NCBI RefSeq assembly: GCF_032884065.1 | Contig: NC_088867.1 | Span: 44,951,453-45,015,452, forward strand | DNA from: Artemia franciscana | Lineage: Eukaryota > Arthropoda > Branchiopoda > Anostraca > Artemiidae | DNA length: 64,000 nucleotides | Reading direction: 5' to 3' | Shown: one piece after another, positions 11,390 to 52,333 of the stretch | Position numbering within the stretch: the first letter of the stretch is position 1 | Layout: each line of letters begins with the position of its first letter | Notes under the pieces: generated by a model | What the model was told of the DNA's origin: nothing | The model's input: only the letters and a program-made list of their open reading frames with translations | Databases searched by the model: none | Position numbers and translations under genes: made by a program

Positions 11390-11785
11390 ATGCAATTTCG
11401 ATGTGTGTGATGTCTATCTTTTTCTTGGGTTGCAACACAAACAAGAAGAAGAAGAAAAAATCAAAATTCAATATGAAAAAAATAAGCGATTTGAATTCCA
11501 AAGAATTGCATGTAGTTTGTTCACATTAAAACTTGAAAAATAAATCAATAACAGAAATACAAAAAACGTGACTTCAATGTGTAAAATTTCTATCATTTTT
11601 TTTCGTCTGGTTGTGAAATATATATGTATAAAACATGCCTATTGTATGCTCAAAATAATATTCCAAAAAAATATTCAAAAAAAAAATTTCTAAAAAAAAA
11701 TATACAAAAAAGTTCCAATTTTTCATAATTTTTAACAGTGTGTATGATTTTTTGTATATTGGGTGCCATGTATAAGAAAAAAAAA
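11390..11785 (+). repeat. Three degenerate ~170-bp repeats before the PLE frame
   Basis: Similar stretches (gtgtgtgatg-tctatc-tttt-cttggg-like, then A-rich) occur near 11399, 11575 and 11735, about 165-175 bp apart. The third overlaps the start of the reverse transcriptase frame. This may be the PLE's repeated leader; divergence is high, so the call is tentative. Confidence 0.4.
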
Positions 11786-13747
11786 CATGCTAATATTATC
11801 AATCAACAAAAATTTTTAGAATCCTGTAGAAAGGAAAACCTTATTCCCAAGTCTTTAAGATATAAATTACATTTAAATACCCGAAAAGAAGCGCAATTTG
11901 CCCATACACTACAGTTAAAAACCCTAGTCCATATTATTAAGGACAAAAAACAGAAACGACATATTATTTCTTCAGAGAGAAAATCGTTGGAAACTTTTTT
12001 GCTGGAAAACTTGTCCACTGTTGATTTTGCTCAAGTTGTTAGATTAGAAAGGAATTTGTTTAGCCACGATTTTCGCTTGTCCAAGGAACGCCTCTATAAA
12101 AAATTAGAGGGCTTACGAAATGAATCTTCGATGAGAAACCGTATTTATTCTCCAAGATTCACTCCTGGGCCTGCTATCGTTAACCTCTCTTCTAAAACAT
12201 TGGAACCCCAGGAAATCGAAACACTAGAAAAAGGTCCAAAATTTTCTTTTCTACCGAAACAGGTTCCTGTGGCAGATATAGTTTCCTCTCTAGAGTCCGC
12301 TTTGCATAAACACTATCCTTCTGTCTCTAACTCGGATGAAGTTAGATCTGGTCTAATAAATATCCTTTATAATAGCCAAAAAAAGTTTAAGCCTCCTACT
12401 AATTCCACACCGGAAAATTTGCATGACATAAAAATACTATCTAATCTCCGAAAAGATCCTTCTATTATAATAACTAAAGCAGACAAAAGCAATTCACTTG
12501 TTGTCATGAATACAACAGACTATGACAACAAAATTTTTTCGCATTTAAATGACACAATTACATATCAAACAATAACTCATGATCCTACTGATCAGTTCAC
12601 TAATAATATTATAAATGAATTAAAGCAGTTAAAACAAAATGGTAAAATCACCCCACAACTATACAATAAATTTTTTCCCCGTGGTAGTTTCTGTCCTAAA
12701 CTCTACGGTTTACCAAAAATACATAAACAGGGTATTCCCTTAAGACCTATTGTAGCTTGTACTAAAGCTCCCGCTGCCAATATTGGAAAATGGCTTTGTG
12801 CAGCTTTCAAACCTTTATTGTATTCTCAAAATTCCTATATTCATAACTCGGCAGATTTGATTAAAAAACTTAGCAACACAAGTATTTCAGAAAACACAAT
12901 AGTTAGTAGTTTCGACATTGTTTCCATGTATACAAATATAGATGTAACTATTTCAGAGGAATTATTAAAAAACAAAATAGAAGAAAATTACCACTTGATC
13001 GAGACTTCAGCGACAGGAATTGATTGTGAAGTTTTAATGACTCTTGTTAAAATTTGTAATAAGTTTTCTATGTATTTTCAATTTCGCGATTCTTTTTATC
13101 AGCAAAAAAATGGATTACCCATGGGGGCACCTTTATCCGGGCTACTAGCAAATATTTACGTCGAGAATCTTGAGAATTGGGCATTGAATTCTTATTTTCT
13201 AAAACATGTCTATTGGGGTCGTTATATGGATGACGTAATTTCACTTTGGAATTATGGGGAAGCTGAACTTCGGGGCTTCTTAGATCATCTTAACACTTAT
13301 GACCGAAATTTGCAGTTCACCCTTGAAGTTGAAATTGAAAATAAACTACCGTTTTTAGATGTATTAATTATTCGTAAAGCTGATGAACTGGATTTTACTA
13401 TATATCGAAAGCCAACACAAAACAATAGATATCTTCACTTTAATTCAAATCACCCCCCACAAGTTAAAAGAGCAGTTGTAATTTCCCTCATTGATCGTGC
13501 CCTAAATATTTGCTCCCATTCATATATAAATGCAGAAATAAATTTTATCAGAGATATTCTTTTTGGTAATGGATACCCCATTCCTTTTGTAAATAAAATA
13601 ATTAGCCGTAGAATAAAAAGACATTCTTGTAAAATCGAAGAAGATACTTCACAATGTGAGGCTATTGATAAGCCCTCAAATATTGTCTATCTTCCGTATA
13701 TCCCAAAGATTACAACAAAATTAAAAAATATTTGCACAAAAAAATAA
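11744..13747 (+). CDS. Penelope-like reverse transcriptase
   Basis: Copies element RNA into DNA at the target site. The open frame runs from 11738, where it begins with GTG. The first ATG is 11744 and a second is at 11768; the true start is undecided. Counting from 11738, the residues show KADK at 247-250, YGLPKIHK at 323-330, motif A FDIVSMYTNID at 392-402, motif B GLPMGAPLSG at 459-468 and the catalytic YMDD at 496-499. LPFLD and IYRKPTQ follow near 537-560. These are typical of PLE reverse transcriptases, which are related to telomerase RT. At 669 codons it covers the N-terminal region and RT core at about the usual length. The endonuclease lies downstream in another frame, abutting at an A-rich stretch. 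Confidence 0.93.
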   Translation: MIFCILGAMYKKKKHANIINQQKFLESCRKENLIPKSLRYKLHLNTRKEAQFAHTLQLKTLVHIIKDKKQKRHIISSERKSLETFLLENLSTVDFAQVVRLERNLFSHDFRLSKERLYKKLEGLRNESSMRNRIYSPRFTPGPAIVNLSSKTLEPQEIETLEKGPKFSFLPKQVPVADIVSSLESALHKHYPSVSNSDEVRSGLINILYNSQKKFKPPTNSTPENLHDIKILSNLRKDPSIIITKADKSNSLVVMNTTDYDNKIFSHLNDTITYQTITHDPTDQFTNNIINELKQLKQNGKITPQLYNKFFPRGSFCPKLYGLPKIHKQGIPLRPIVACTKAPAANIGKWLCAAFKPLLYSQNSYIHNSADLIKKLSNTSISENTIVSSFDIVSMYTNIDVTISEELLKNKIEENYHLIETSATGIDCEVLMTLVKICNKFSMYFQFRDSFYQQKNGLPMGAPLSGLLANIYVENLENWALNSYFLKHVYWGRYMDDVISLWNYGEAELRGFLDHLNTYDRNLQFTLEVEIENKLPFLDVLIIRKADELDFTIYRKPTQNNRYLHFNSNHPPQVKRAVVISLIDRALNICSHSYINAEINFIRDILFGNGYPIPFVNKIISRRIKRHSCKIEEDTSQCEAIDKPSNIVYLPYIPKITTKLKNICTKK

Positions 13748-31720: not shown

Positions 31721-33005
31721 ATCGTGAGGGAGGGGGGAGAGACGCCGAATTCTTATAAGGGAAAGAAAAAAAGGAGGATCACAAACTTGTACAGGAATAT
31801 GTCAAGCAAAAATATAAATCAATAAAATAAAAAATAAAGTCATAACAATTACTCAGATGCGCACTCTAAATTACCGAACTGGCAGGTTTTAACAGTTATA
31901 TTACAAAACAATCACAATAGGAAGTGAGGACTGAGAGGGGGGGGGGCTAAGAGCCCAGATCTTCATAAAGGGAAAAAAAGAGGAGGAAGAAGGGAAGAAG
32001 TTGCCATATTGACGAACTACTGAAAGTAGACAGCAGAGAAAATTTGTGAAACCAGATATGTCGGTATCCCAATCAAGATTGCCTTTTCTTAAATTTGCTT
32101 ATACATTACAAAACAGACTTTTTTCAGCATATTTTTAAAATGGGTTCTAAAAATGATTTAATACCCAAATTCCCAATTTTATTTGTCGTTTTGGGAGAAA
32201 ATAATAGTTTTAGGGATCATACATGAGCCTGTAAACTTCAAAGAAAGAAACAAAAAAAATTAAATTAAAATCAAGCTTTAGTCACCCAAGAAAATTATAA
32301 GTTGAGTCTTTCGATTTAGGTTCTTAACAGTGACTACTCTCTTCTCTTTTATATTATATTTTCTAGTCAAAACTTTTGGGGCTTCATTATTCAATGCCAA
32401 ATTAGAACGAATTTGAGGATACAACAACAGAGAAAAGAGCTTCAGTAGATAAGAAAATAGAAAATAGTAGTATCTCTATATGCACTCCGACAACAGCACA
32501 CCCCCTTCGATCCCAGGTACCTGCATTTTCTTTTTAAGATCCTCCATACGCCTTCAATTGGTCCGAGCAGACACATATTACGTCATTTCGAGCAGAGACA
32601 TATCCCATCATTCTGAGCAAACATATATCACATGATTCCTGCGAAACATATGGTGTTATCTCAACTTCCGGAGATAAGGAAATTCATGGAAACATCATTA
32701 TTCGAGTTTAGTTTGCCAAGTATTTTATTCCATAGTTGAAGTGAGTTTAAGTGACATGATGTCTAATAAACGAAGTTTTGTTATGGATCCTATTATATAA
32801 TTGGAAGAGATCTTTCTGTACTCTAATTGTATCGAGCCTTTTATTATTAATTGATTATGACTGACTAGCTAGCAAAATTCTACACGAATATGTCGAGCAA
32901 AAATGTAAATCAATAAAAAGGATGATGAAGTTGCAACAATTACTCAAATACGCACTCTAAATTAACAATTGCCAGGTTTTAACATTTATATTGAAAAAAA
33001 TCAAA
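31720..33005 (+). repeat. Dispersed 0.87-kb segment between partial direct repeats
   Basis: Positions 32005-32862 match 39560-40438 in the same orientation with high similarity. They include the 'tatgcactccgacaacag' end of the large inverted structure and ~480 bp outside it. The copy is flanked by direct repeats of ~130 bp ('gaatatgtc.agcaaaaat.taaatcaataaaa' at 31790-31922 and 32880-33005). A further partial repeat, 'ataaggg(g)aaa.aaaagagg', lies at 31755 and 31968. No coding capacity was seen. Confidence 0.8.
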
Positions 33006-39559: not shown

Positions 39560-40438
39560 GAGAAGTTGCCATATTGACGAACTACTGAAAGTAAACAGCT
39601 GAGAACATTTGGGAAACCAGATATGTCGGTATCCCAATCAAGATTGCCTTTTTTTTTTAATTTGTTCACACATTACAAAACAGACTTTTTTCGGCATATT
39701 TTTAAAAAGGGTTCTAGAAATTATTTAATACCCAAATTCCCAATTTTATTTGTCGTTTTGGGAGCAAATAATAGTTTTAGGGATCATATATGAGCCTATA
39801 AACTTCAAAGAAAAAAAAAACAAAAAATTGAAATTAAAATCAAGCCAAGGTTTAGTCACCCAAGAAACTTACAAGTTGAGTCGTTCGATTTAGGTTCGTA
39901 ACAGTGACCACTCTCTTCTCTTTTATATTATATTTTCTAGTCAAAACTTTTGGGGCTTCATTATTCAATGCCAAATTAGAACGAATTTGAGGATAAAACA
40001 ACAGAGAAAAGAGCTTCAGTAGATAAGAAAATAAAAAATAGTAGTATCTCCATATGCACTCCGACAACAGCACACCCCCTTCGATCCCAGGTACCTGCAT
40101 TTCCTTTTTAAAATCCTCCATACGCCTTCAATTGGTCCGAGCAGACACATATTCCGTCATTCCGAGCAGAGACATATCCCATCGTTCTGAGCAAACATAT
40201 ATCACATGATTCATGCGAAACATATGGTGTTATCTCAACTTCCGGAGATAAGGAAATTCGTGGAAACATTATTATCTGAGTTTAGTTTGCCAAGTATTTT
40301 ATTCAATAATTGAAGTGAGCTCGAAGTGACATGATGTCTAATAAACGAAGTTTTGTTATGGATTCTATTATATAATTGGAAGAGATCTTTCTGTACTCTA
40401 ATTGTATCGAGCCGATTATTGATAATTGAATATGACTA
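39560..40438 (+). repeat. Second copy of the 0.87-kb dispersed segment
   Basis: Matches 32005-32862 in direct orientation. Its last ~400 bp (from 40040) form the left terminus of the inverted structure described next. Its first ~480 bp have no partner at the right end of that structure. Confidence 0.85.
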
Positions 40439-42050
40439 CAACCGGCAAGGCATCATTTTTGTAATGTAATGGTCCTGAACACATCTGTTTCCCATTACCG
40501 AGGCTTGCACATGAGTTTGGGTTCCCACATAACCATCCAGGACCCAACGCCGCAGGTCAGGGAACCGAGTATTTATTAAGTATTTATTCCCACGTCTTTG
40601 CATCACATGTATATTCTTTGATTGGTATAAAACTGTTTTAACAGCTACAAAAACAAAGTGCTTAGTGTTGGCATTTGATACAAAAACGTCCAGTTATCTT
40701 AAGGATTCTGCCTCATTCTTACATGCATTCAAAAATGGTTTTGTAAATTCATTGAATCGAAGAAATTGTTTTAACAGCTAAAAAAAATAAAGTGGTTTAT
40801 ATGAATATTTCATGCACAAAAAAACCCGCTTTTGAAGGAATCGGCCTTCTTCTTATATGCTGTAAAAAACAGTTCGTACATTCTTTGATTCGTATAAGAT
40901 TCTTTTAACAGCTAGAAAAACAATAGTGGTTTGTTTGGGTATTTCAAGTAAAGCCGTCCCGTTTGATAAGGAATCGGCCTTTTTCTTACATGCTGTCAAA
41001 AATGGGTTTTATAATCTTTGATTCATATAAAATTGTTTTAACAGCTAGAAAAACAAAGTGGTTTTTATGGGCATTTCAGGCATAGTCACCTCTTTTTTTT
41101 AAGGATTCGGCCTTTTTCTGAGATGCATACAAAAATAGTTCGAGAATATTCATGGAAACTTTATTATGAGTTTAGTTTGCCAAGTATTTTATTCCATAAT
41201 TGAAGTGAGCTTGATGTGACATGATGTCTAATAAACGAAGTTTTGTTATGGATTCTATTATATAATTGGAAGAGATCTTTCTGTACTATAGTTGTATCGA
41301 GCCGATTATTGATAATTGATTATGACTACAACCGGCCAGGTATAATTTTTGTAATGTAATGGTCCTGAACACATCTGTTTCCCATTACCAAGGCTTGCGC
41401 ACGAGTTTGGGTTCTCACACAACCATCGAGGACCCAACGTCCCAGGCCAGGGACCCGAGTCCCCCTCCAAGAGTTTTGTTAACTGAATTTTTTCAACTAT
41501 TTTTTCCCACGTCTTTGCATCACATGTATATTCTTTGATTGGTATAAAATTGTTTTAATAGCTAGAAAAATAATGTGCTTAGTGTTGGCATTTGATACAA
41601 ACACGTCCAGTTTTCTTGAGGACTCTACTTCATTCTTACATGCATTCAAAATGGTTTTGTAAATTCATTGAATCGAAGAAATTGTTTTAACAGCTAAAAA
41701 AATAAAGTGGTTTATATGAATATTTCATGCAAAAAAAAACGTTTTTTAAGGAATCGGCCTTCTTCTTACATGTTGTAAAAAACAGTTCGTACATTCTTTG
41801 ATTCGTATAAGATTCTTTTAACAGCTAGAAAAACAATAGTGGTTTGTGTGGTTATTTCAAGCAAAGCCGTCCCATTTTTCAAGGAATCGGCCTTTTCCTT
41901 ACATGCTGTCAAAAATGGGTTGTATATTCTTTGACTCATATAAAATTGTAATAACAGCTAGAAAATCCAAGTGGTTTGTATGGCCATTTCAGGCACAGTC
42001 GCCCTTTTTTTTTAAGGATTCGGCCTTTTTCTTACATGCATACAAAAATA
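40262..42050 (+). repeat. ~890-bp tandem duplication in the left arm
   Basis: The segment with 'gacatgatgtctaataaacg' at 40328 recurs at 41218. Both copies continue through 'ggtcctgaacacatctgttt', 'cacatgtatattctttgatt' and several ~132-bp units in the same order. The left terminus is thus present twice in a row, which is absent from the right arm. Confidence 0.85.
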
Positions 42051-43600
42051 GTTCGTTCATTCCTTGATTGAAAAACAAAGTGGTTTGCGTGGACACTTCA
42101 TGAAAAGTCGCCCCAATTTATAAGGATTCGACTTTTATTTTTAAATGCATTAAAAATTGGTTCGTACATTCTTTGACTTGTATAAAATTGTATTAACAGC
42201 TAGAAAAACAAAGTGGGTTTTGTAGACATTTCGTGCAAATTCGCCCCGTTTTTATGGCACTTGGTATTTACCAAGTGACATATAGCGATCGCAATTTCTG
42301 TCCGTAGGTCTGTCTGTCTGTCGCTCAGTCTGTCGGTCCCGGTTTTGCTAGTTTTGATACGTGATCAATGTAGCGATCACTGAAATTTGGCAGTCGTATC
42401 AGGGACCAGAACAGATTAAATTAGAAATAGATGCTTCCCCGATTCAACCATCTGGAGGAGGGGAGGGAGTTGGAAGGAGGGTTAATTCGGAAAAATTAGA
42501 CAAAATGAGGTATTCTTAACTTGCGAAGAGGAGATCGGATCTTAATGAAGTTTGATATTTAGAAGGAACTCGTGTCTCAGAGCTCTTATATTAAATCTCG
42601 ACCGGATCCGCTGAAATTGGGGAGAGTTGGAGGGGAAACCAGAAATCTTGGAAATGATTAGAGTGGAGAGATCGGGACGAAACTTGGTGGGAAGAATAAG
42701 CACAAGTCCTTTGTGGGTATTGGTGTATTTCGAGTGCTTTGGCGAATTCGGTCTTTCTGGACATACTAGGATGATGAAAATTGGTAGACGTGTCAGGGAC
42801 CTACACAAATTCACTTGATAACAGTCATTTCGCCGAATTGACCATCTGGGGGGCTGGAGGGAGAGGAAATTGTGAAAATTGAGGTATTTTTATCTCACAA
42901 ATGGGAGATCGGATCTTATTGAAACTTGTTATATAGAAAGATACCACGTCTCAGATGCTCAATTTTCAATTCGGATCGGATCCGGGGACATTGGGCGGTG
43001 GATGGGAGAAACGAAAATCTTGGAAAACGATTAAAGTGGAGAGATCGGATGAAACTTGATAGGAAGAATAAGCAAAAGTTCTAGATACGTGATTGACATA
43101 ACCGGACCAGATCCGATCTTTTTTGGAAGAGTTGGAGGGATTTCCAGAGATTTGGCGAGTTCGAGAATAAGCTCAAGCTTTAAATGCATGATTGACATAA
43201 CTAGGACAGGATCCAATTGCCCGTCAAGAGTGCCATAGGAACTCTTAGCTATTGTTTTTAAGAATTCAGCTTGTTTCTTAGATGCATTCAAAAAATGGTT
43301 TGTACATTCTTTGGTCCGTATAAAATTGTTTTAAAAGCTAGAAAAACAAAGTGGTTAATATGGATATTTCATGCAAAATTGCCCCCATTTTTATAGAGTC
43401 AGTGTTTTTGTTAGATGCATTCAAAAACGGTTCGTAAATTCTTTTATTTATTTTAAGTTCTTTTAACAGCTAGAACAACAAAGTAGTTTGTGTGGGCATT
43501 TCATGCAAAGTCGTTCCGTTTTGTAAGGAGTCAGCCCTTTTCGTACATGCATTCAGAAATGGTTTGTAAATTCTTTGCTTTGTACAGAATTGAATTGATG
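40600..43600 (-). repeat. ~132-bp satellite, left arm
   Basis: The unit reads roughly tcgtataaaattgttttaac, then agctagaaaaacaaagtggt, a 'ggcatttcatgcaaagtcgcccc' block, 'aaggattcggcctttttctt', and 'catgcattcaaaaatggttc'. Copies diverge by perhaps 10-25 percent. The array is broken by the duplicated terminus at ~41150-41510 and by element B (42254-43253). Confidence 0.88.
42254..43253. mobile_element. Element B, 1.0-kb insertion in the satellite
   Basis: GTTTTT at 42248-42253 and at 43254-43259 flank it, a likely 6-bp target duplication within the satellite unit. It starts ATGGCACTTGGTATTTACCAAGTG; bases CACTTGGTA-TT-TACCAAGTG form a perfect palindrome. GTGCCAT near the right end mirrors ATGGCAC. 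The interior is made of ~300-bp repeats (g-g-a-t-c-g-g-a-t-c-t type) related, in opposite orientation, to the array at 56.8-58.4 kb. No protein frame was supported. Confidence 0.65.
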
Positions 43601-43712
43601 GCGCCACAAGTGATTTTTTTTTCACGAAGATTACATAATGTTAACTGATTTTTAGTTAGGTTAGTTTGGGCTTAGTAAGCGTGCGCGCACACTTATTGAG
43701 TTACTCATTTTG
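43601..43712. other. Unique centre of the inverted structure
   Basis: About 110 bp between oppositely oriented satellite arrays. It contains a 'tgcgcgca' palindrome (near 43682) and no satellite sequence. Confidence 0.6.
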
Positions 43713-44135
43713 TTTTTCTAGCAATTTAAAACAATGTTACATGAATCAAAGAATGTACAAACCATTTTTAACAGCATGTATGAAAAAGGCTGAATCCTTA
43801 AAAACAAGACGAAATTGCATGAAATGTCCGCACAAACCACTTTGTTTTTCTAGCTATTCAAACAAGTTTTTGCAAATCAAAGAATTTACAAACCATTTTT
43901 GACCGCAAGTAAGAGAAAGGCTGACTCCTTAAAAACGGGGCAATTGTGCATGAAATACCCATACAAACTGCTTTGTTTTTCTGGCTGCTAAAACAATTTT
44001 ATACGAATCAAAGAATATACACACGATTACAATGAATATTGAATACATCTAAGAAAAGGGCTGAATTATTAAAAAAGAAACGGGGCGATTTTGCATGGAG
44101 TGCCCACACAAACCATTGTTTTCTAGCTGTTAAAA
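43713..44135 (+). repeat. ~132-bp satellite, right arm, first part
   Basis: The same unit as at 40600-43600 but in reverse orientation (tttgtttttctagct, ttaaaacaatgtt, caaagaatgtacaaaccattttt). It is cut off at 44135 by the RTE LINE insertion. Confidence 0.88.
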
Positions 44136-47100
44136 TACTACTACTACTACTAATAACTCACTGCAGCACCAAGCCGCCTGAGGCCAACACAGCTACGCAC
44201 GCTCCTCCTCCAACCTAATCTATTTAAAGCCTCCCTCTTTACACCCTCCCAGGAAGTTCCCATTTCCTTTAAATCCTTATTTATGACATCCTCCCAACCC
44301 AGACAAGGACGACCTGCTTTCCGTGTAGCCCCAGACGGTTGGCCAAAAAGGACAATCTTCGGCAATCTGTCATCCTTCATCCGTAGAACGTGGCCTAGCC
44401 ATCTCAACCTTTCTTTCATTATAGCCCCAGAAAGCGGGATTGAACCACACTTTTCGTACAACCTACTGTTTGAAATACGGTCAGTCAGCCGGGTACCCAG
44501 AAAAATCCGTAGGCAATTTCTCTGGAAAACATCTAGTAAATTTTCATCTGCTTTTCGGAGTGTCCATGCTTCAGAGCCATATTTGACCACTGTCATCACT
44601 GTAGCTTCCAATATTCTAATCTTGGTTTGTAGGCTTATCTTTCTATTCTTCCAAACTTTTTTTAACTGTGAAAAAAAACCACCCTGAGCTTTAGCTATTC
44701 TACTTTTAACATCTTCACTGCTCCCACCATCTTTACTAATAATACTACCAAGGTAACTGAAGCTCCCGACCTGATCAATCTTTTCGTTACCTAAGGTCAC
44801 CTGTTCATCTTCACTTATTCCTAGCCTTAGTGACTTAGTCTTCTTAACATTCATTTTCAAGCCTATTTTAGCACCCTGAACTCGTAAAACCTCTAAAAAT
44901 TCATTCATTTTGCTCACACTTTCATCTAATATGCTTAAATCATCAGTATAATCTAAGTCCAGGAGCGTTCTTCCTCCCCATTTGATTCCATGGTCTCCAA
45001 TTGCCTTTCCTGTGCTCCTTAAGACGAAGTCCATCAAAATGATCCATATAAAGGGGGATAGAACACAACCCTGCTTAACTCCTGATTTAATACAAAACCA
45101 GTTGCTAACCTCATTTCCTACCTTAACCGCAGCAGTATTATTCTCGTACATAGCGCAAATCACTTTAATGTATTTTTCTGGTATACCATATAACGATAAG
45201 ACCTTTGTTAACGCTGTTCTATCAACAGAATCGAAAGCTTGCTCATAATCGATAAAACTAAGGACCAAAGGTGTTTGACAACGAAGGGACTTCTCAATTA
45301 TTAACCTAAGAGTGAAAACATGGTCGACACATCCTCTACCTTTTCTAAAACCGCATTGTTCTTCCCTTAAAACTTTGTCTACAGCATGTCTCAGTCTAAA
45401 AAGTATCATATTACTCAGTAATTTGCTACCCACAGAGACCAGACTAATGCCTCGATAATTACGACATTCACTCTTGTCACCTTTCTTATACAGCGGTTTA
45501 ATTAAGGTTTTCCTAAAATCATTGGGTACTTCCCCTTTTTCAAAAATCATGTTCATAATCTTCAGTAGCTTATTCCTAACCTCAGAGCCACCATATTTAA
45601 GGAACTCATTAATCATACTATCAGCACCTGGGGCCTTATTATTTTTTAATCCTTCTAGTACTGTCGCTAATTCTTCCTCACTAAACAAATCTTCCTTCAC
45701 ATCCAAGGTATCACAAACTTTTTCATTTTCATCTATATCTTTTCCTGCAACTGTATCTCGGTTTAGCACATTCTCAAAATGTTCCACCCATCTTTCTTTA
45801 ACTTTTTCCTTATCACTAATTGTGGCCCCATTTCTATCTTTAACTGGGACTAGTCCGGATCGGCTACTCCCTTTCAATTTATTAACATGCCAGTATAATA
45901 TTATACTATTATGCCGTCTAGCCGCATCTTCCAGATCCTCAGCAATTTTATCCATCGCCTCCATTTCACATCTCCTTAGTTCATATTTTAATGCTTTCTC
46001 CACTTTCTTTACATTCCTTTTGTTTTCATACGACCTATCGCTCAGATAATTCTTATACAAACCCCTTCTACTCGCTATTAAACCTAAAGCTTTTTCACTA
46101 ATATTCCTAGTTGCTGTCTTAGCACTCTTCCCTAGGACACCATCAGCAACTTCACAAATTGTTTTTCTGAAATTATTCCATCCATCTTCCACATTGTCAA
46201 ATTTTAAACCCTCAAGTTTAGTACTCAACTGTTCCTGGAATTTTTTTCTCAAATTTTCATCCTGAAGTCTACCAACATCATAACTTTCCGGGAGGGAGTT
46301 ACTCTTCCGAAATTTCAGCTTTAAATTAACCTTAGACACTACTAGATGGTGATCTTTACTTTTAACATCAATAACGGCACTCCTATACACCCTAGTATCT
46401 TGTATTGATCCTGCTAGTCTTCTGTTTACAATAACATAATCAATAAGGTTTGCTGTCTTACCATCACGTGAATACCATGTCAACTTATGGGCCATTTTGT
46501 GACCAAACACCGTATTGGTTATAACTAGGTTGTTATACCTACAAAATTGCAAAAGCCTATAGCCATTACTGTTTTCTTTTCCTACACCAAAACTACCTAG
46601 GCTAGGATACCATCTATCCCTATTTCTACCAACCTGGGCATTAAAATCTCCTAGCAAAAACACCATATTTCTACCTGGTACCCTGTCTATTTGCCCCTGT
46701 AACTGTAAGTAAAATTCATCTGAGTCACTAGTATCTCCATCAGTTGGTTCAATGGGGGCATATACTACTATAACTGATACCCTAAACTTTTTAGTCATAA
46801 AATGAGCAATTAGTATTCTATTATTAATACCTTCCCAGCCTAAACAAGACTTAGCAGCTTCCTTGTTCATCATGAGCCCTACTCCCTGTCTACGTACCCC
46901 ATCCTTCCTTCCTGAGTAAACAAATTCTATGTCCCCTAATTTCATGCTTCCTACCCCTGGGATATGAGTTTCTGAAACTCCTAATAAATCCAGTTCAAAC
47001 CGCCTGAATTCGTCAGTCAAAATGTCGATGCGATAGTCATTTTTTAACGTCGTAACATTCCAAGTTCCAATTTTCATGTTCTTTAAATCTTTGAAATTAT

Positions 47101-47785
47101 TTTGGCCTCAAGAAAAGCAGTGATCCCGGATACCAGTGCAGGATGGGGACCAACATATCTTCTCAAGTCTACACCGAAGCGCTTAAGCCGGCTTAGAACC
47201 GGACAGCAAGAAGTCCCTGGGACCTCCAGTAAGTTGGAGGCTTTGTGCAATCCTGGGCCCATCTTGGTCACAACATGGTTTTCAGCACTTGGCGATGCTC
47301 TTCTATCAACAAGAGTCGAAATCCTGCACAGACAGTCCCAAGCCTATTACCTCCGACTCATTATATATTCATGCCTACAAATATTATGCTACAACGGGGA
47401 GGCAGCCCATAGTAGATAAATCAGCTAGGAAGAGGTTTTTCATTCCGAAAACGCCCATCAAAACAAACCAAGCCCAGAAAATTATCCAATAATCAGAATC
47501 CCGTACGAGTGCTGTGTTGTTTACTAGGCTATAATTTCCTCGAGGGGCGCCACTCCTCAAGTGGGAAAAATTGACCGCAAGTTTCCCAGTCTTGCAGGTA
47601 CCCCGAAAGGGTCGAGGCAGCCCTTTACAGAGGCCGTTGTCCATAAATCTGGATCTTACGCCCTGCCGCAGTTGTCCTCCTATAGAGGATCCTCCCACGA
47701 TGGTGTTCTGCTTCACCATGCAATTTAACCCATTACTGGGAGAAGGTTTGTAACTCATCTGACGCGTGAACACGGCAGTTGGCCC
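44136..47785 (-). mobile_element. RTE-type LINE, near-complete
   Basis: The 3' end is a (CTA)n run at 44136-44151, inside the satellite phrase 'tagctgttaaaa'. One long EN-RT frame follows, then ~700 bp upstream holding smaller minus-strand frames (47083-47271 and 47384-47773). These are likely the 5' region of the element, since the stretch is complex sequence ending where the 80-bp array begins. A single apurinic-like endonuclease plus RT, a minimal 3' UTR and a simple-repeat tail are RTE features. The intact ORF suggests a young copy. Confidence 0.88.
44150..47077 (-). CDS. RTE LINE endonuclease-reverse transcriptase
   Basis: An uninterrupted 975-codon frame starts at ATG 47077 with MKIGTWNVTTL, a standard start for this family. 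The endonuclease (about 1-245) has TWN at 5-7, SETH at 35-38, VVYAP near 104, GDFNAQVG near 143 and KDHHLV near 241, where most relatives have SDH. The RT (about 480-760) has FIDYEQAFD at 608-616, GVKQGCVLSP at 666-675 and YTDD at 710-713. The truncated sister copy at 768-1909 has YADD, so Thr replaces Ala next to the catalytic aspartates. The C-terminus carries KYGSEAWTLR and RLRWLGHV. The stop TAG is supplied by the CTA tail itself. It nicks target DNA and primes reverse transcription there. Confidence 0.95.
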   Translation of the reverse strand: MKIGTWNVTTLKNDYRIDILTDEFRRFELDLLGVSETHIPGVGSMKLGDIEFVYSGRKDGVRRQGVGLMMNKEAAKSCLGWEGINNRILIAHFMTKKFRVSVIVVYAPIEPTDGDTSDSDEFYLQLQGQIDRVPGRNMVFLLGDFNAQVGRNRDRWYPSLGSFGVGKENSNGYRLLQFCRYNNLVITNTVFGHKMAHKLTWYSRDGKTANLIDYVIVNRRLAGSIQDTRVYRSAVIDVKSKDHHLVVSKVNLKLKFRKSNSLPESYDVGRLQDENLRKKFQEQLSTKLEGLKFDNVEDGWNNFRKTICEVADGVLGKSAKTATRNISEKALGLIASRRGLYKNYLSDRSYENKRNVKKVEKALKYELRRCEMEAMDKIAEDLEDAARRHNSIILYWHVNKLKGSSRSGLVPVKDRNGATISDKEKVKERWVEHFENVLNRDTVAGKDIDENEKVCDTLDVKEDLFSEEELATVLEGLKNNKAPGADSMINEFLKYGGSEVRNKLLKIMNMIFEKGEVPNDFRKTLIKPLYKKGDKSECRNYRGISLVSVGSKLLSNMILFRLRHAVDKVLREEQCGFRKGRGCVDHVFTLRLIIEKSLRCQTPLVLSFIDYEQAFDSVDRTALTKVLSLYGIPEKYIKVICAMYENNTAAVKVGNEVSNWFCIKSGVKQGCVLSPFIWIILMDFVLRSTGKAIGDHGIKWGGRTLLDLDYTDDLSILDESVSKMNEFLEVLRVQGAKIGLKMNVKKTKSLRLGISEDEQVTLGNEKIDQVGSFSYLGSIISKDGGSSEDVKSRIAKAQGGFFSQLKKVWKNRKISLQTKIRILEATVMTVVKYGSEAWTLRKADENLLDVFQRNCLRIFLGTRLTDRISNSRLYEKCGSIPLSGAIMKERLRWLGHVLRMKDDRLPKIVLFGQPSGATRKAGRPCLGWEDVINKDLKEMGTSWEGVKREALNRLGWRRSVRSCVGLRRLGAAVSY

Positions 47786-47790
47786 AATTC

Positions 47791-48160
47791 AACTAAATAA
47801 CTCTATAAGATAAACATATTCATAAATTTAACTCTATAAATACAAATTTACAACCATTATCCGCAAATCCAACTAAATAACTCTATAAGATAAATATATG
47901 CATAAATATAACTCTATAAATATAAATTTGCAATCATTATCCGAAAATTCAACTAAATAACCCCATAATATTAATATATACATAAATATAACTCAATAAA
48001 TATAAATTTGCAATCAATATCCGTAAATTCAACTAAATAACTCTATAAGATAAATATATCCATAAATATAACTCTATAAGTATAAATTTGCAATCATTAT
48101 CCGTAAATTCAACTAAATAACTCCATAAGATAAATATATACATAAATATAATAACAGTAC
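47791..48160. repeat. 80-bp tandem array (4.5 copies)
   Basis: 'aactaaataa' begins at 47791, 47871, 47951, 48031 and 48111, an exact 80-bp period with few substitutions and no length changes. The unit is AT-rich (ctctataagataaatatat, cataaatataactctataaa, tataaatttgcaatcattatccg). It directly abuts the RTE LINE 5' end on one side and a LINE C-terminal relic on the other, so it may be that relic's tail. Confidence 0.92.
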
Positions 48161-48460
48161 ATAGAACAAATGTCAAAAATCAATCTCTCTTGTAAAAAGA
48201 AAAGAAAAAAAAACAATGATCTCTAATCCCCCTCCCAATAAATACTTCTTTAATCTTTCCTTACATTTAATTGTTCAGCCACCTTAATACTTGTCGGAAG
48301 TACATTCCAAACACACGGTTCCAAATGGCAAATCGTAAATCCTGCCCGATCGCTCAACCACAAGGTTATCCACAATTCTGGTACTATATTCGGGTAAATA
48401 GCTATTACTCTTATAAAAATGAGAAGAAATATCTGGGCATATATCCGAGTCAAAATCCCG
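48161..48460 (-). pseudogene. LINE C-terminal fragment (CR1/L2-like)
   Basis: The minus-strand translation has CHLEPCVWNVLPTSIKVAEQ (48380-48310), followed in another frame by KCKERLKKYLLGGGLE. Together these are the WN-x-LP and F/Y-K-x-x-LKxYL ending of CR1/L2-type LINE proteins. A frame change separates the two. The rest of the element is absent. Confidence 0.65.
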
Positions 48461-49188
48461 ATTCAGATAGGTTTAATTCTCCTACTTAACTGTTTATTTA
48501 TTTCAGGTAAAATTGCAAAATTTAAACATTAGCTCCTGACGGAGAGCAGAGCTCGTAAAGTTCGATAAGTAAATAGTAGGACGTATCATAAATAAAACGA
48601 TTTATCTCGTCGTAATGCTATTAATAGCAAAAATAAAACCTGGTTAACCAAAACAACGACAAAAAGTAAAAAAAAAGACAAAAATACTGCGCAGGATGGA
48701 TGTGGGCCCCAGTATGGGTACACTAAAATAAATACACACAAAAAATCTAACATATTTTAGTATCCCACCATTTTTGGTCAGTGAACAATCCTTGATATTT
48801 CTCTCTTTAATTTCAGCGTCGGGACAAATCAATTCGAGTTTTATCATTCAACTTATATTTGTTTGAAATTAATGGTATTTGGTGCCTAATCGAAAATCTA
48901 GGCCGCTCAGAACTAATAAAAGGAATCCGTCGATACACCCTAGAGCGCCAAAGAGCCGAAGGAAGGGGCAGAATCAGTAGCGATTTTTCATAAGAATAAC
49001 TACTAAAATTTTGTATTTGAACATGCCATATGAAAATATCACCTTCTGTTATATGTTTTAAATCAAACAGATTTGCGAAAAAACTTTATGCATGACAGTT
49101 AACAATGTTGAACTAGGAAAAAATTATTAAACGACCTAGTTGTGCGTAATTTGATTTAATCGACAAGTGTGGCTATATTTTCAAGAAA
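48461..49188. other. No gene seen
   Basis: Unclassified AT-rich sequence within the right arm of the inverted structure, between the LINE relic and the resumed satellite. Confidence 0.5.
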
Positions 49189-51592
49189 TGAATATATATT
49201 TCAAGAAATGAACAAACCATTTTTTTTTTAATGCATTTAAGAAAAAACGTAGAACCCTTAGAAAACGGGGACGACTTTTCAAGAAATGTCCACACAATGC
49301 ACTTTGTTTTTTAGCTGTTAAAACAATTTTATATATATCAAAGAACGTACGAACAATTTTTGAATGCATTTAAGAAAAATGGTCGAATCCTTAAAAAACG
49401 GGACGACTTTTCATGAAATGTCTACACAAACCACTTTGTTTTTCTAGCTGTTACAACAATTTCACACAAATCAAAGAATGTACGAACCATTTTGACAGCA
49501 CATAAAATGGTGATGACAGCATGATTTTGCATGAAATGTTCCACACACACCACTTTGTTTTTTTACCTGCTGATTCAATTTTATACGAATCCAAGAATGC
49601 ACAAACTATTTTTGAATACATGTAAGAAAAAGGCCGGATCCTTAAAAAACGGGGTAGCTGTGCACGAATAACTCACACAACTAATTTTTTCTTGCTGTTA
49701 AAGTAATTTTATACAAGTCAACGAATGTATAAACCATTTTTGACACAATGTAAAAAAAAGGCTGAATCCTTTAAAAACGGGCCAATATTGTAAGAAATGC
49801 CACACAAGCCACTTTGTTTTTCTAGCTGTTAAAAAAATTTTTTATACGAATTTTAAGAGTGAATAAACCGTTTTTGAATGCACGTAAAAACAGGCTGAAT
49901 CCTTAAAAAACCGGGCGGTTGTGCATGATAAGCCCAGACAAACCATTTGTTTTCTAGCTGTTAAAACAATTTTATATGAATCAAAGAATGTATAAACCAT
50001 TTTTGAATGTATTTAAGACAGAAAATCCGAATTCTTCAAAAACGGGACGATTGTGCAAGTAATGCCCACACACCACTTTTATTGTTCTAGCTGTCAAAAC
50101 AATTTTATATGAATCAAGGATTGTACAAACCATTTTTGAACGAATGTAAGAAAAAGGCTGAGTCCTTAAAAAATGGGGCGAGCGTGCATGAAATAAACAT
50201 AAAAACCGCTTTGTTTTTCTAGCTGTTAAAACAATTTTATACAAATCAAAGAATGTAAAAACCCCTTTTTAAAATACGTGCTAGAAAAAAGGCTGAATCC
50301 TTAAAAAAAGGGGCGACTGTGCATGATATGCGAAACCAAACAATTTGTTTTTCTAGCTGATAAAACCATTTTATACAGATCAAAGAATGTGTGAACCATT
50401 TTTGACAGAATGTAAGAAAAAGGCTGAATCCTTAAAAAACGAGACAACTTCGTATGAAATGCCACAGAAGCCACTTTGTTTAACTAGTTTCGAAATTTTT
50501 TTTATACGAATCAATGAATGCACAAACCCTTTTTTGAACAGATTGTATGAAAAATACCGAGTTCTTAAAAAATGGGTTGATTGTGCATGAAATATCCACA
50601 CAAACCACTTTGTTTTTCAAGGTGTTAATTTTTTGATACGAATCAAAGAATGTACAAACAATCTACTTTGAATGCATGTGAGAAAAAGCCGAATCCTTAA
50701 AAACGGGACGATTGTGCATGAAATGCCAACACAAACTACTTTGTTTTTGTATCTGTTAAAACAATTTTATACGAATCAAAGAATGTAAAAACCATTTTTG
50801 ACAACATGCATACAAATGGCCGAATCCTTAAAAAAACGGAGTAATTGTCCATGAAATACCCACAACAAATTTTGTTTTTCTAGCTGTTAAAACAATTTTA
50901 TACTCATCAAAGAACTTACAAACCATTTTTGAATGCATTTAGGAAAAATATCGAGTCCTTAAAAAAGCGGGACGACTGAGCATGAAATATCCAAACCAAC
51001 CACTTTGTTTTTCTAGCAGTTAAAACAAACTTATACGAATCAAAGAATGTACGAACCATTTTTGAATGCATGCAAGATAAAGACCGAATACTTAAAAAAC
51101 AGGGTGACTGTTCATGAAATGCCCGCACAAACCACTTTGTTTTTCTAGCTATCAAAAAAGTTTTATATAAATCAAGGAATGTACGAACCATTTTTGATAG
51201 AATGCAAAAAAATGGCTGAATCCTTAAAAAACGGAACGACTTTGCATAAAATGCCCAAAAAAAACACTATTATTTTTCTAGCTGTTAAAAGCCTTTAATA
51301 CGAATACAAGAATGTACGAACCATTTTTGACAGTATGTGAGAAAAGGACCGATTCCTTAAGAAACGGGGTGATTGTGCATGAAATATCCATATAAGCCAC
51401 TTTTTTTGCTGTTAAAATAATTTTATTCGAATCAATGAATTTACAAAACTATTTTGAATGCATGTAAGAATGAGGCTGAATCCTTAAAAAAACGGGACAA
51501 GTACGCATGTAATGCCAATACAAAGCACTTGATTTTTCTAGCTGTTAAAACAATTTTATACGAATCAAAGAATGTACATGTGATTTTAAGAC
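49189..51592 (+). repeat. ~132-bp satellite, right arm, main part (~18 copies)
   Basis: Uninterrupted units in the order 'caaagaatgta.gaaccatttttgaatgcat', 'gtaagaaaaaggc.gaatcctt', 'aaaaacgggacgac', 'gtgcatgaaatgccca', 'acaaaccactttgtttttct', 'agctgttaaaacaattttat'. They are opposite in orientation to the left arm. Short open frames here are by-products. Confidence 0.9.
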
Positions 51593-52333
51593 ATGGAAAA
51601 AATACTTGAAAAAAATTCAGTTAAAAAAAGTAAAAAAAATGGTTAGGGGAAAAAATTTGGGGGATATTAAGAGCCCTGGAGGGTGATATTGGACCCTGGA
51701 AAGGCATTCTGGACCCTGGTGGGGGACATTGGGTCCTGGATGGGAATGCGGGGATCCAAACTCATGCACAAGCCTCGGAAGTGAAAAACAGATGTGCTCA
51801 GGACCATCACATTAGTAAAATGATACCTAGCCGATTGCAGTCATAATCAATGATCAATAATCAGTAATCAACTCGATCCCATTAGAATACAAAAAGATAT
51901 CTTTCAATTATATAATAGAATCCATAACAAAACTTCGTTTATGTTACGATCACCTACATCATATCACCTAAAGCTCACTTCAGTTATTAAATTAAAAACT
52001 TGGCAAACAAAAACTCAGATAATAATGTTTCCATGAATATGCTTTCCCCAGAAGTTGAGATAACACCATCCGTGTCATTAGAACGATGAGATATATGTCT
52101 GCTCGGAATGATGGGTAATTTTTTTCTCGGACGAATTGAAGGAATACGGACGATTTAAAAAAAGTGCCGGTACCTGGGATCGAAGCGGGTGGGTTGTTGT
52201 CGGAGTGCATATAGGGATACTACTGAAAATTATATTTTTCCCACCATTTTCCAATTGCGCGTATGCCCGATTTCACTTCGTGCCCTTCGTTGTACAAGTG
52301 TGTACTTAATTATTAGATATTAATTAGACTTAC

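Follow-up and report, generated by a model that had tools for sequence, protein, structure and literature searches.

What is the 12-kb inverted structure that lies in a 64,000-bp stretch of the Artemia franciscana genome (C5:44951453-45015452, hereafter the window)? An earlier note on this DNA had described it as a Foldback-like element built on a ~132-bp satellite, and had named an inverted duplication of an ordinary satellite locus and a chromosomal inversion breakpoint as alternatives. We read the structure, at positions 40040-52224 of the window, as an old copy, interrupted by insertions, of a foldback element that is non-autonomous and has Maverick/Polinton-type ends, with a probability of about 0.8.

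Architecture of the inverted element

The element measures 12,185 bp, with boundaries taken from the tip alignment. Its ends were read exactly, as AGTAGTATC... at 40040 and ...GATACTACT at 52224. In a self-BLAST of the window, the termini at 40040-40547 and 52224-51729 aligned in inverted orientation (528 columns, 78.6% identity, E 4.6e-82). The inverted match reported in the earlier note was recovered, at a length of ~500 bp instead of the ~550-600 bp given there.

The satellite was analyzed with a 132-bp monomer profile that was grown from one natural unit and scanned over the whole window at E <= 0.01. All 35 detected monomers of ~132 bp pointed inward, 13 on one strand in the left half and 22 on the opposite strand in the right half, and the profile detected none in the window outside 40040-52225. 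The switch in orientation falls between 43573 and 43705 and leaves a centre of ~110-130 bp, in agreement with the previously claimed ~110 bp. Inverted termini and inward monomers together confirm that the foldback architecture of 12 kb is real. Pfam results for 3 of the 10 open reading frames (ORFs) of the window were reverse transcriptase-type elements or nothing, and the window gave no Rfam or tRNA matches.

A dispersed family with different satellites

The assembly searched contains 1,270,528,402 bases in 6468 contigs. The genome-wide searches scored the best candidates only, and the match counts below cover those. The left terminus gave 46 matches (best 40 of 605 first-look candidates scored), and a second subfamily gave 84 (best 40 of 794). 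Relatives of the terminus were located on many chromosomes, several of them as inverted pairs around other tandem repeats of 53 to 273 bp. Four of the six stretches fetched contained such a pair (L031, L032, L034 and L036); L031 and L032 had been picked since their pair was already visible, and two of the other four had a partner. No partner terminus was found in L033 and L035 within the stretch fetched. Further inverted pairs were located at C1:3785630/3791142, C13:4777975/4782510 and C3:11553674/11559113, and on C32, C10 and C21. The suspicion that copies of the terminus might never occur in inverted pairs was not borne out, and the dispersed copies found with the left terminus confirm a family instead of a single event. 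The window element is a mobile element of this dispersed family, not a one-off rearrangement.

The copies differ in their interiors. L031 contains 53-bp repeats in mirror image, L034 contains 75- and 176-bp repeats, and L036 contains 75- and 273-bp repeats in direct orientation between termini that are 86% identical. The 132-bp array was largely confined to the window locus and its duplicate (best 40 of 85 candidates); related pieces occurred at C7:9711342 in the family member L035, at C7:9440282, at two C1 sites and as shorter fragments elsewhere. The satellite is therefore not a defining part of the family and differs between subfamilies. Long inverted arms, internal tandem repeats, a short middle and dispersed occurrence place the family in the foldback structural class, with L036 as the exception. 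As a separate observation, a ~88-bp piece of the 132-bp array (window 50000-50560, - strand; query ~329-417) occurred at scattered sites, sometimes in close inverted pairs resembling miniature inverted-repeat transposable elements (C8:11155843/11155970 and C15:8531193/8531340).

Family tips and target-site duplications

The tip of the family is AGTAGTAT, of the (AGT)2 type. A 26-base tip pattern with at most 3 mismatches gave 67 matches, compared to 0 for the reversed control; a loosened pattern gave 601 matches compared to 290 in the control and was not used. In 30 loci read, the flanks outside the tip were unrelated, except for two groups with nearly identical 40-bp outer flanks (L051, L053-L055, L059 and L063; and L060-L062, L065 and L066). 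Since these flanks are shared at several sites, the tips concerned appear to be carried along by a different repeat or to have been duplicated together with their surroundings.

To read target-site duplications, the flanks of nine pairs in which both ends were readable were compared. At a length of 6 bp, 44 of 54 bases agreed. At lengths of 3, 4, 5 and 7 the agreement was 6/27, 14/36, 12/45 and 20/63, and at 8, 9, 10 and 11 it was 28/72, 18/81, 34/90 and 24/99; the fractions at lengths 3-5 and 7-11 ranged from 0.22 to 0.39. Three pairs had perfect hexamers (TGGGAG, TATATT and AAAGAC), three matched at 5 of 6 bases (window, C32 and C21), two at 4 (C13 and L032) and one at 3 (C3). Among 72 wrongly paired flanks, the mean was 1.94 of 6 and the maximum 4. 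The nine pairs omit L031 (left tip lost), L034 (outer ends truncated), L058 (a paralogue of L057), the window's own paralogue, which is not independent, and L033 and L035, which are partnerless. The check for short target duplications thus yielded a duplication of 6 bp.

These data bear on the alternative in which an ordinary satellite locus was duplicated in inverted form just once, or in which the locus marks an inversion breakpoint. That reading could point to the locus being itself duplicated and to the near-confinement of the 132-bp array to the locus and its copy. The same termini, however, occur in dispersed inverted pairs on many chromosomes with duplicated target sites, which excludes both versions. 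For the breakpoint in particular, hexamers alike at 5 or 6 of 6 bases in six of the nine pairs lend it no support. We regard this explanation as extremely improbable.

The duplication length and the tip also decide against an assignment to Foldback/Galileo, whose architecture the earlier note had recognized here. Galileo is a foldback element of the P superfamily, with long inverted arms that contain internal repeats, a P-type transposase and a 7-bp duplication. The window family shares with it the long inverted arms with internal repeats, but its duplication is 6 bp, against 7 bp in Galileo and 7-8 bp for Galileo/P in general. Since the family combines 6-bp duplications with the (AGT)2 tip, a Maverick signature, it is not filed under Foldback/Galileo. 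Among other carriers of satellites, Helentron and HINE elements have asymmetric ends and no target duplication; they were ruled out by the symmetric ends and 6-bp duplications found here.

A broader form of this explanation is a Foldback/Galileo- or Mutator-type cut-and-paste transposon whose transposase is gone and whose inverted repeats have grown longer. Such a history has been proposed for Tetris, a Drosophila foldback element and the closest one in anatomy that we encountered. In PMC4079207, most foldback elements are assigned to Mutator, as is Tetris by its authors, and Tetris has 8-10-bp duplications. Its gross anatomy is indeed similar: like Tetris and other Drosophila Foldback elements, the window family has outer flanking, tandem-repeat and middle domains, repeats inside the inverted termini and no ORF of its own. 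The duplication of 6 bp differs from the 8-10 bp of Mutator-like (MULE) foldback elements such as Tetris, and the family tip is the Maverick tip. We consider a cut-and-paste origin of this kind quite unlikely. The ends compared here point to Maverick-type ends for the window family and do not support membership in Foldback/Galileo or Mutator.

Resident Mavericks of the Artemia genome

Mavericks, also called Polintons or polintoviruses, are giant transposons that resemble viruses. According to PMC8097293, vertebrate Mavericks end most commonly in (AGT)2//(ACT)2, their target duplications are 6 bp long, and the inverted repeats of intact elements measure 46-1447 bp. The window family has the (AGT)2-type tip, the 6-bp duplication and inverted repeats, of ~500 bp in the window. 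We compared it with the Mavericks of the same genome. DNA_pol_B_2 gave 44 matches in this genome, up to E 1.5e-27, and 0 in 14 control genomes. The Maverick copy of L071/L079 carried, on one strand, PolB (E 2.4e-22), a Pox_A32-like ATPase (E 9.7e-8) and the integrase core rve (E 7.9e-9); in Pfam, the PolB of L071 was matched as a 419-aa piece, the whole 877-aa frame giving no match. The ORF presumed to encode the protease had no PDB match, and the presumed capsid piece had a weak match to hexapeptide transferase (E 0.21); both labels are tentative. The last Maverick ORFs matched no Pfam family below E 0.04.

At one end of the C583 copy, past the last ORF, a 139-140-bp unit is repeated eight times before the terminal sequence AGTAGTATAGGCCC. 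The resident Maverick tip, AGTAGTATAGGCC, gave 51 matches with at most 3 mismatches compared to 0 in the control, many of the 3-mismatch matches being internal array units. On C904 and C991 the array units were located at both ends and pointed inward. Seven pairs of Maverick tips lay within 20 kb of each other, on C583, C991, C904, C6 (tips located only), C12, C14 and C15. The duplication was a perfect 6 bp on C583 (CAAAAG). C991 and C904 had the duplication GCTCTT and identical 20-bp flanks, so they probably represent one insertion held twice. The TATATA of C14 lies inside a TA repeat and is uninformative. The resident Mavericks follow the plan of the window element: they have an identical 8-bp tip, an inward subterminal array and a 6-bp duplication.

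Several minor observations concern these copies. The C583, C991/C904 and C12 insertions sit in seemingly one repeat (L080; sites L081-L086, L089 and L090), pieces of which, 62 bp long, recur at 113-bp spacing in L080. This repeat is probably the Artemia AluI satellite, and Mavericks may favour it. At C103:2080446-2080505, two Maverick tips stand back to back, 8 bases apart, as adjacent insertions or an end-to-end junction. In L078, at ~2214-2245, a Maverick tip is almost directly joined to a truncated PolB match, and L078 is apparently an internally deleted Maverick.

Palindromic Maverick derivatives

Some of the Maverick tip pairs are themselves palindromes; by match positions, three of the seven (C12, C14 and C15) are inverted duplicates. 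The clearest reading was obtained for C12:14642959-14653372, which is 10,414 bp long. A 617-bp subterminal query matched on both sides, in opposite orientations and at exactly 1,047 bp from the respective end, and both arms contain a fragment of the last Maverick ORF region followed by AT-rich repeats of the ~14-bp type. Over 1,003 aligned bases per side, the identity between the arms is 98.9%. A 990-base stretch through the centre is 99.0% identical to its reverse complement, and no more than ~14 nucleotides at the axis are unpaired. These values come from ~3.1 kb of the 10.4 kb (L103-L105) plus the tips, and symmetry elsewhere is inferred from match positions. The duplication of C12, CGCAAT, is perfect.

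On C1, two inverted pairs (51.19 and 51.56 Mb) share the internal breakpoint of C12 (query base 1065). For each pair a single tip was located, at 2.5 and 2.9 kb outside the outer arm match, and their outer flanks differ. The shared breakpoint and the different flanks are consistent with a palindrome that moved as a unit. C15:14281005-14290770 is symmetrical, with 491 bp on each side, and has the duplication GAGGTC provided that one tip lost 2 bases. C14 has PolB matches near both ends in opposite orientation. Assembly artefacts from folded reads were considered as the source of these palindromes and rejected: C12 has two different flanks, an identical 6-bp target next to each end, and arms that differ by ~1%.

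The window element resembles the palindromic Mavericks of Artemia (C12, the two C1 pairs and C15) in its Maverick tip, inward array and inverted symmetrical arms, and in the 6-bp duplication, which was read for C12 and C15. It differs from C12 in that C12 is young (99% between the arms where read) and keeps a Maverick ORF fragment, and in that the filler of C12 is an AT-rich repeat of the ~14-bp type, not 132-bp units. Judged from titles and the starts of abstracts, the open-access literature searched showed no foldback or palindromic Maverick. The palindromic Maverick derivatives of Artemia are described here, together with a foldback-shaped non-autonomous element of Maverick type.

Strength of the link between the family and Mavericks

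In comparison to Maverick/Polinton elements, the window family has the same (AGT)2//(ACT)2 tips, 6-bp duplications and long inverted repeats. It differs in that no PolB, integrase or ATPase coding was found in the window element, in sharing only 8 tip bases with the resident Mavericks, and in its foldback arms of satellite.

Several results weigh against a Maverick origin of the family. Only the first 8 tip bases are shared with the resident Mavericks, and one Maverick end (L080), compared by BLAST with the loci collected and the window, matched only itself and L078. Maverick protein pieces had no match in the window and L001-L066 at E 1e-3, where most loci reach ~1.5 kb inside the tip. All 157 family positions collected lay more than 25 kb from the 85 Maverick positions, the closest approach being ~32 kb; these positions come from the best-scored candidates, with secondary pieces and repeats of one copy left out. 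Among the best candidates searched, no autonomous element with AGTAGTATCCC termini was found. The interior array of L036 is direct, not mirrored.

The duplications have weak points as well. Three of the nine match at only 3-4 of 6 bases, and the three pairs with intact tips (first eight bases at both ends) match at 5 (window), 4 (C13) and 3 (C3) of 6. At least one substitution in the first eight tip bases is present in six of the nine pairs, and in L032, C32 and C21 a substitution falls within the first two bases, so that the boundary there was set by tip alignment. The boundaries were set by eye in this way and were not blind to the flanks.

From these points one could argue for an unrelated superfamily of DNA transposons that has the AGTAGTAT tip and a 6-bp duplication by chance. 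Neither homology to Mavericks beyond 8 bp, in the comparison of the one Maverick end, nor an autonomous partner with the full terminus, among the best candidates, was found, as this explanation would have it. Chance identity of the 8 tip bases, however, amounts to ~1 in 28,000 at this base composition, and the duplication length, the long inverted termini, the inward subterminal arrays and the palindromic tendency also agree with Mavericks. We consider the coincidence unlikely and retain the foldback element with Maverick-type ends as the reading of the window copy. Its missing autonomous partner may have died out or have escaped these searches; alternatively, the resident Mavericks may be what serves the family.

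Proposed mechanism and implications

Maverick enzymes probably replicate and integrate non-autonomous foldback elements of this kind in trans, and snap-back copying would be the step that makes palindromes; the tips, duplications and palindromes argue for this. The repeated tip of Mavericks is expected to permit jumping-back in an adenovirus-like, protein-primed replication (PMC8097293). The (AGT)2 tip of the window family would accordingly be the place at which a linear, protein-primed replicon jumps back. PolB of a Maverick would copy the element extrachromosomally and in trans, and the Maverick integrase would insert it, also in trans. If a displaced strand pairs with itself and then serves as template, the product would be a one-ended palindrome with a short loop. 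Such palindromic molecules would keep what the integrase and the polymerase require and could hence spread in trans. Short tandem repeats near the tip would expand and diverge, giving each subfamily its own satellite, and the arms would drift apart with age, from 99% in C12 through 86% in the termini of L036 to 79% in the window. Expansion next to the tip and drift of the arms would fit a family in which the tips are constant and the satellites change. It is plausible that the palindromic Maverick derivatives are intermediates toward foldback elements.

Snap-back defective genomes of adeno-associated virus (AAV) and one-ended palindromes of adenovirus offer a parallel, in which a linear replicon is likewise doubled head to head from one end. 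They differ in being free viral genomes. AAV, moreover, replicates by a rolling hairpin and not by protein priming (PMC8235507 and PMC11575299). Going further, the foldback elements of Artemia might be a record of defective Maverick genomes, that is, snap-back palindromes that were copied and inserted in trans, possibly to the detriment of their parents, in the manner of defective interfering genomes. We put this forward tentatively and rate it at somewhat less than even odds. If it is true, Mavericks would add a replication-based route by which foldback transposons and dispersed satellites arise, and the palindromes would be sequence evidence for a free linear replicating form of animal Mavericks.

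To our knowledge, replication of Mavericks in animals has been inferred and not seen. According to PMC8097293, their particles have not yet been observed. Snap-back on a protein-primed linear genome would leave just such a trace as C12: a 10-kb palindrome, nearly perfect, with Maverick ends and a clean insertion scar. Since the palindrome fits snap-back copying, the replication mode of Mavericks becomes directly testable in a laboratory animal. Arrays that grow just inside the tips of mobile elements are also one possible source of satellites private to a single locus.

Internal organization of the window copy

The left target-site duplication, AAAAAT at 40034-40039, matches the right one, GAAAAT at 52225-52230, at 5 of 6 bases. 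The left terminal domain (40040-40607, + strand) starts with AGTAGTATC and contains a ~25-bp minisatellite at 40136-40212. It is followed on the + strand by the first block of the 132-bp array, with 4 inward monomers (40608-41142), by a second, partial copy of the inner terminal domain (41144-41524) and by a second array block of 6 monomers, two of them partial (41525-42259). Inner terminus and array are thus present twice in the left half, 40253-41142 and 41144-42055 being 88.9% identical.

About 6 kb of the element is inserted material, consisting of a repeat at ~42260-43225 and a block at ~44137-49206. The repeat (42260-43225) is unrelated to the arm in which it lies and has relatives in L033. 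The three innermost left monomers, one partial, follow at 43254-43573 on the + strand, and a unique centre at 43574-43704 separates the arms. On the - strand, the four innermost right monomers, all inverted and two of them partial, occupy 43705-44136. The inserted block (44137-49206, - strand) holds a LINE-type ORF with endonuclease and reverse transcriptase at 44150-47077 and an 80-bp tandem repeat at 47786-48151. The right 132-bp array, with 18 inward monomers (49207-51578), and the right terminal domain, which ends in ...GATACTACT (51579-52224), complete the element, both on the - strand.

Local duplicates and other features of the window

The left end and its flank are repeated at 31996-32862 with 93.6% identity (self-BLAST). 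This local duplication includes an extra copy of the left terminus at 32466-32863 on the + strand, with the left flank from 31996, and the extra left end at ~32466 is flanked by GAAAAT. A near-identical copy of the locus was located 87 kb upstream on C5, with 99% identity at the left end; the flanking hexamers of this paralogue match at only 4 of 6 bases. The neighbouring copies, window ~31996-52224 and C5 ~87 kb upstream, are near-identical (98-99% in matched pieces). By satellite match positions only, the ~5-kb block with the LINE appears to be absent from the upstream copy. The near-identical neighbours, together with the Maverick that C904 and C991 carry at one and the same target site, suggest that the assembly left haplotypes unmerged, in which case the LINE-containing block would be an insertion polymorphism. 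Elsewhere in the window, positions 11738-13747 contain an open reverse transcriptase ORF of 669 aa (RVT_1, E 1.1e-11), presumably Penelope-like as judged by eye.

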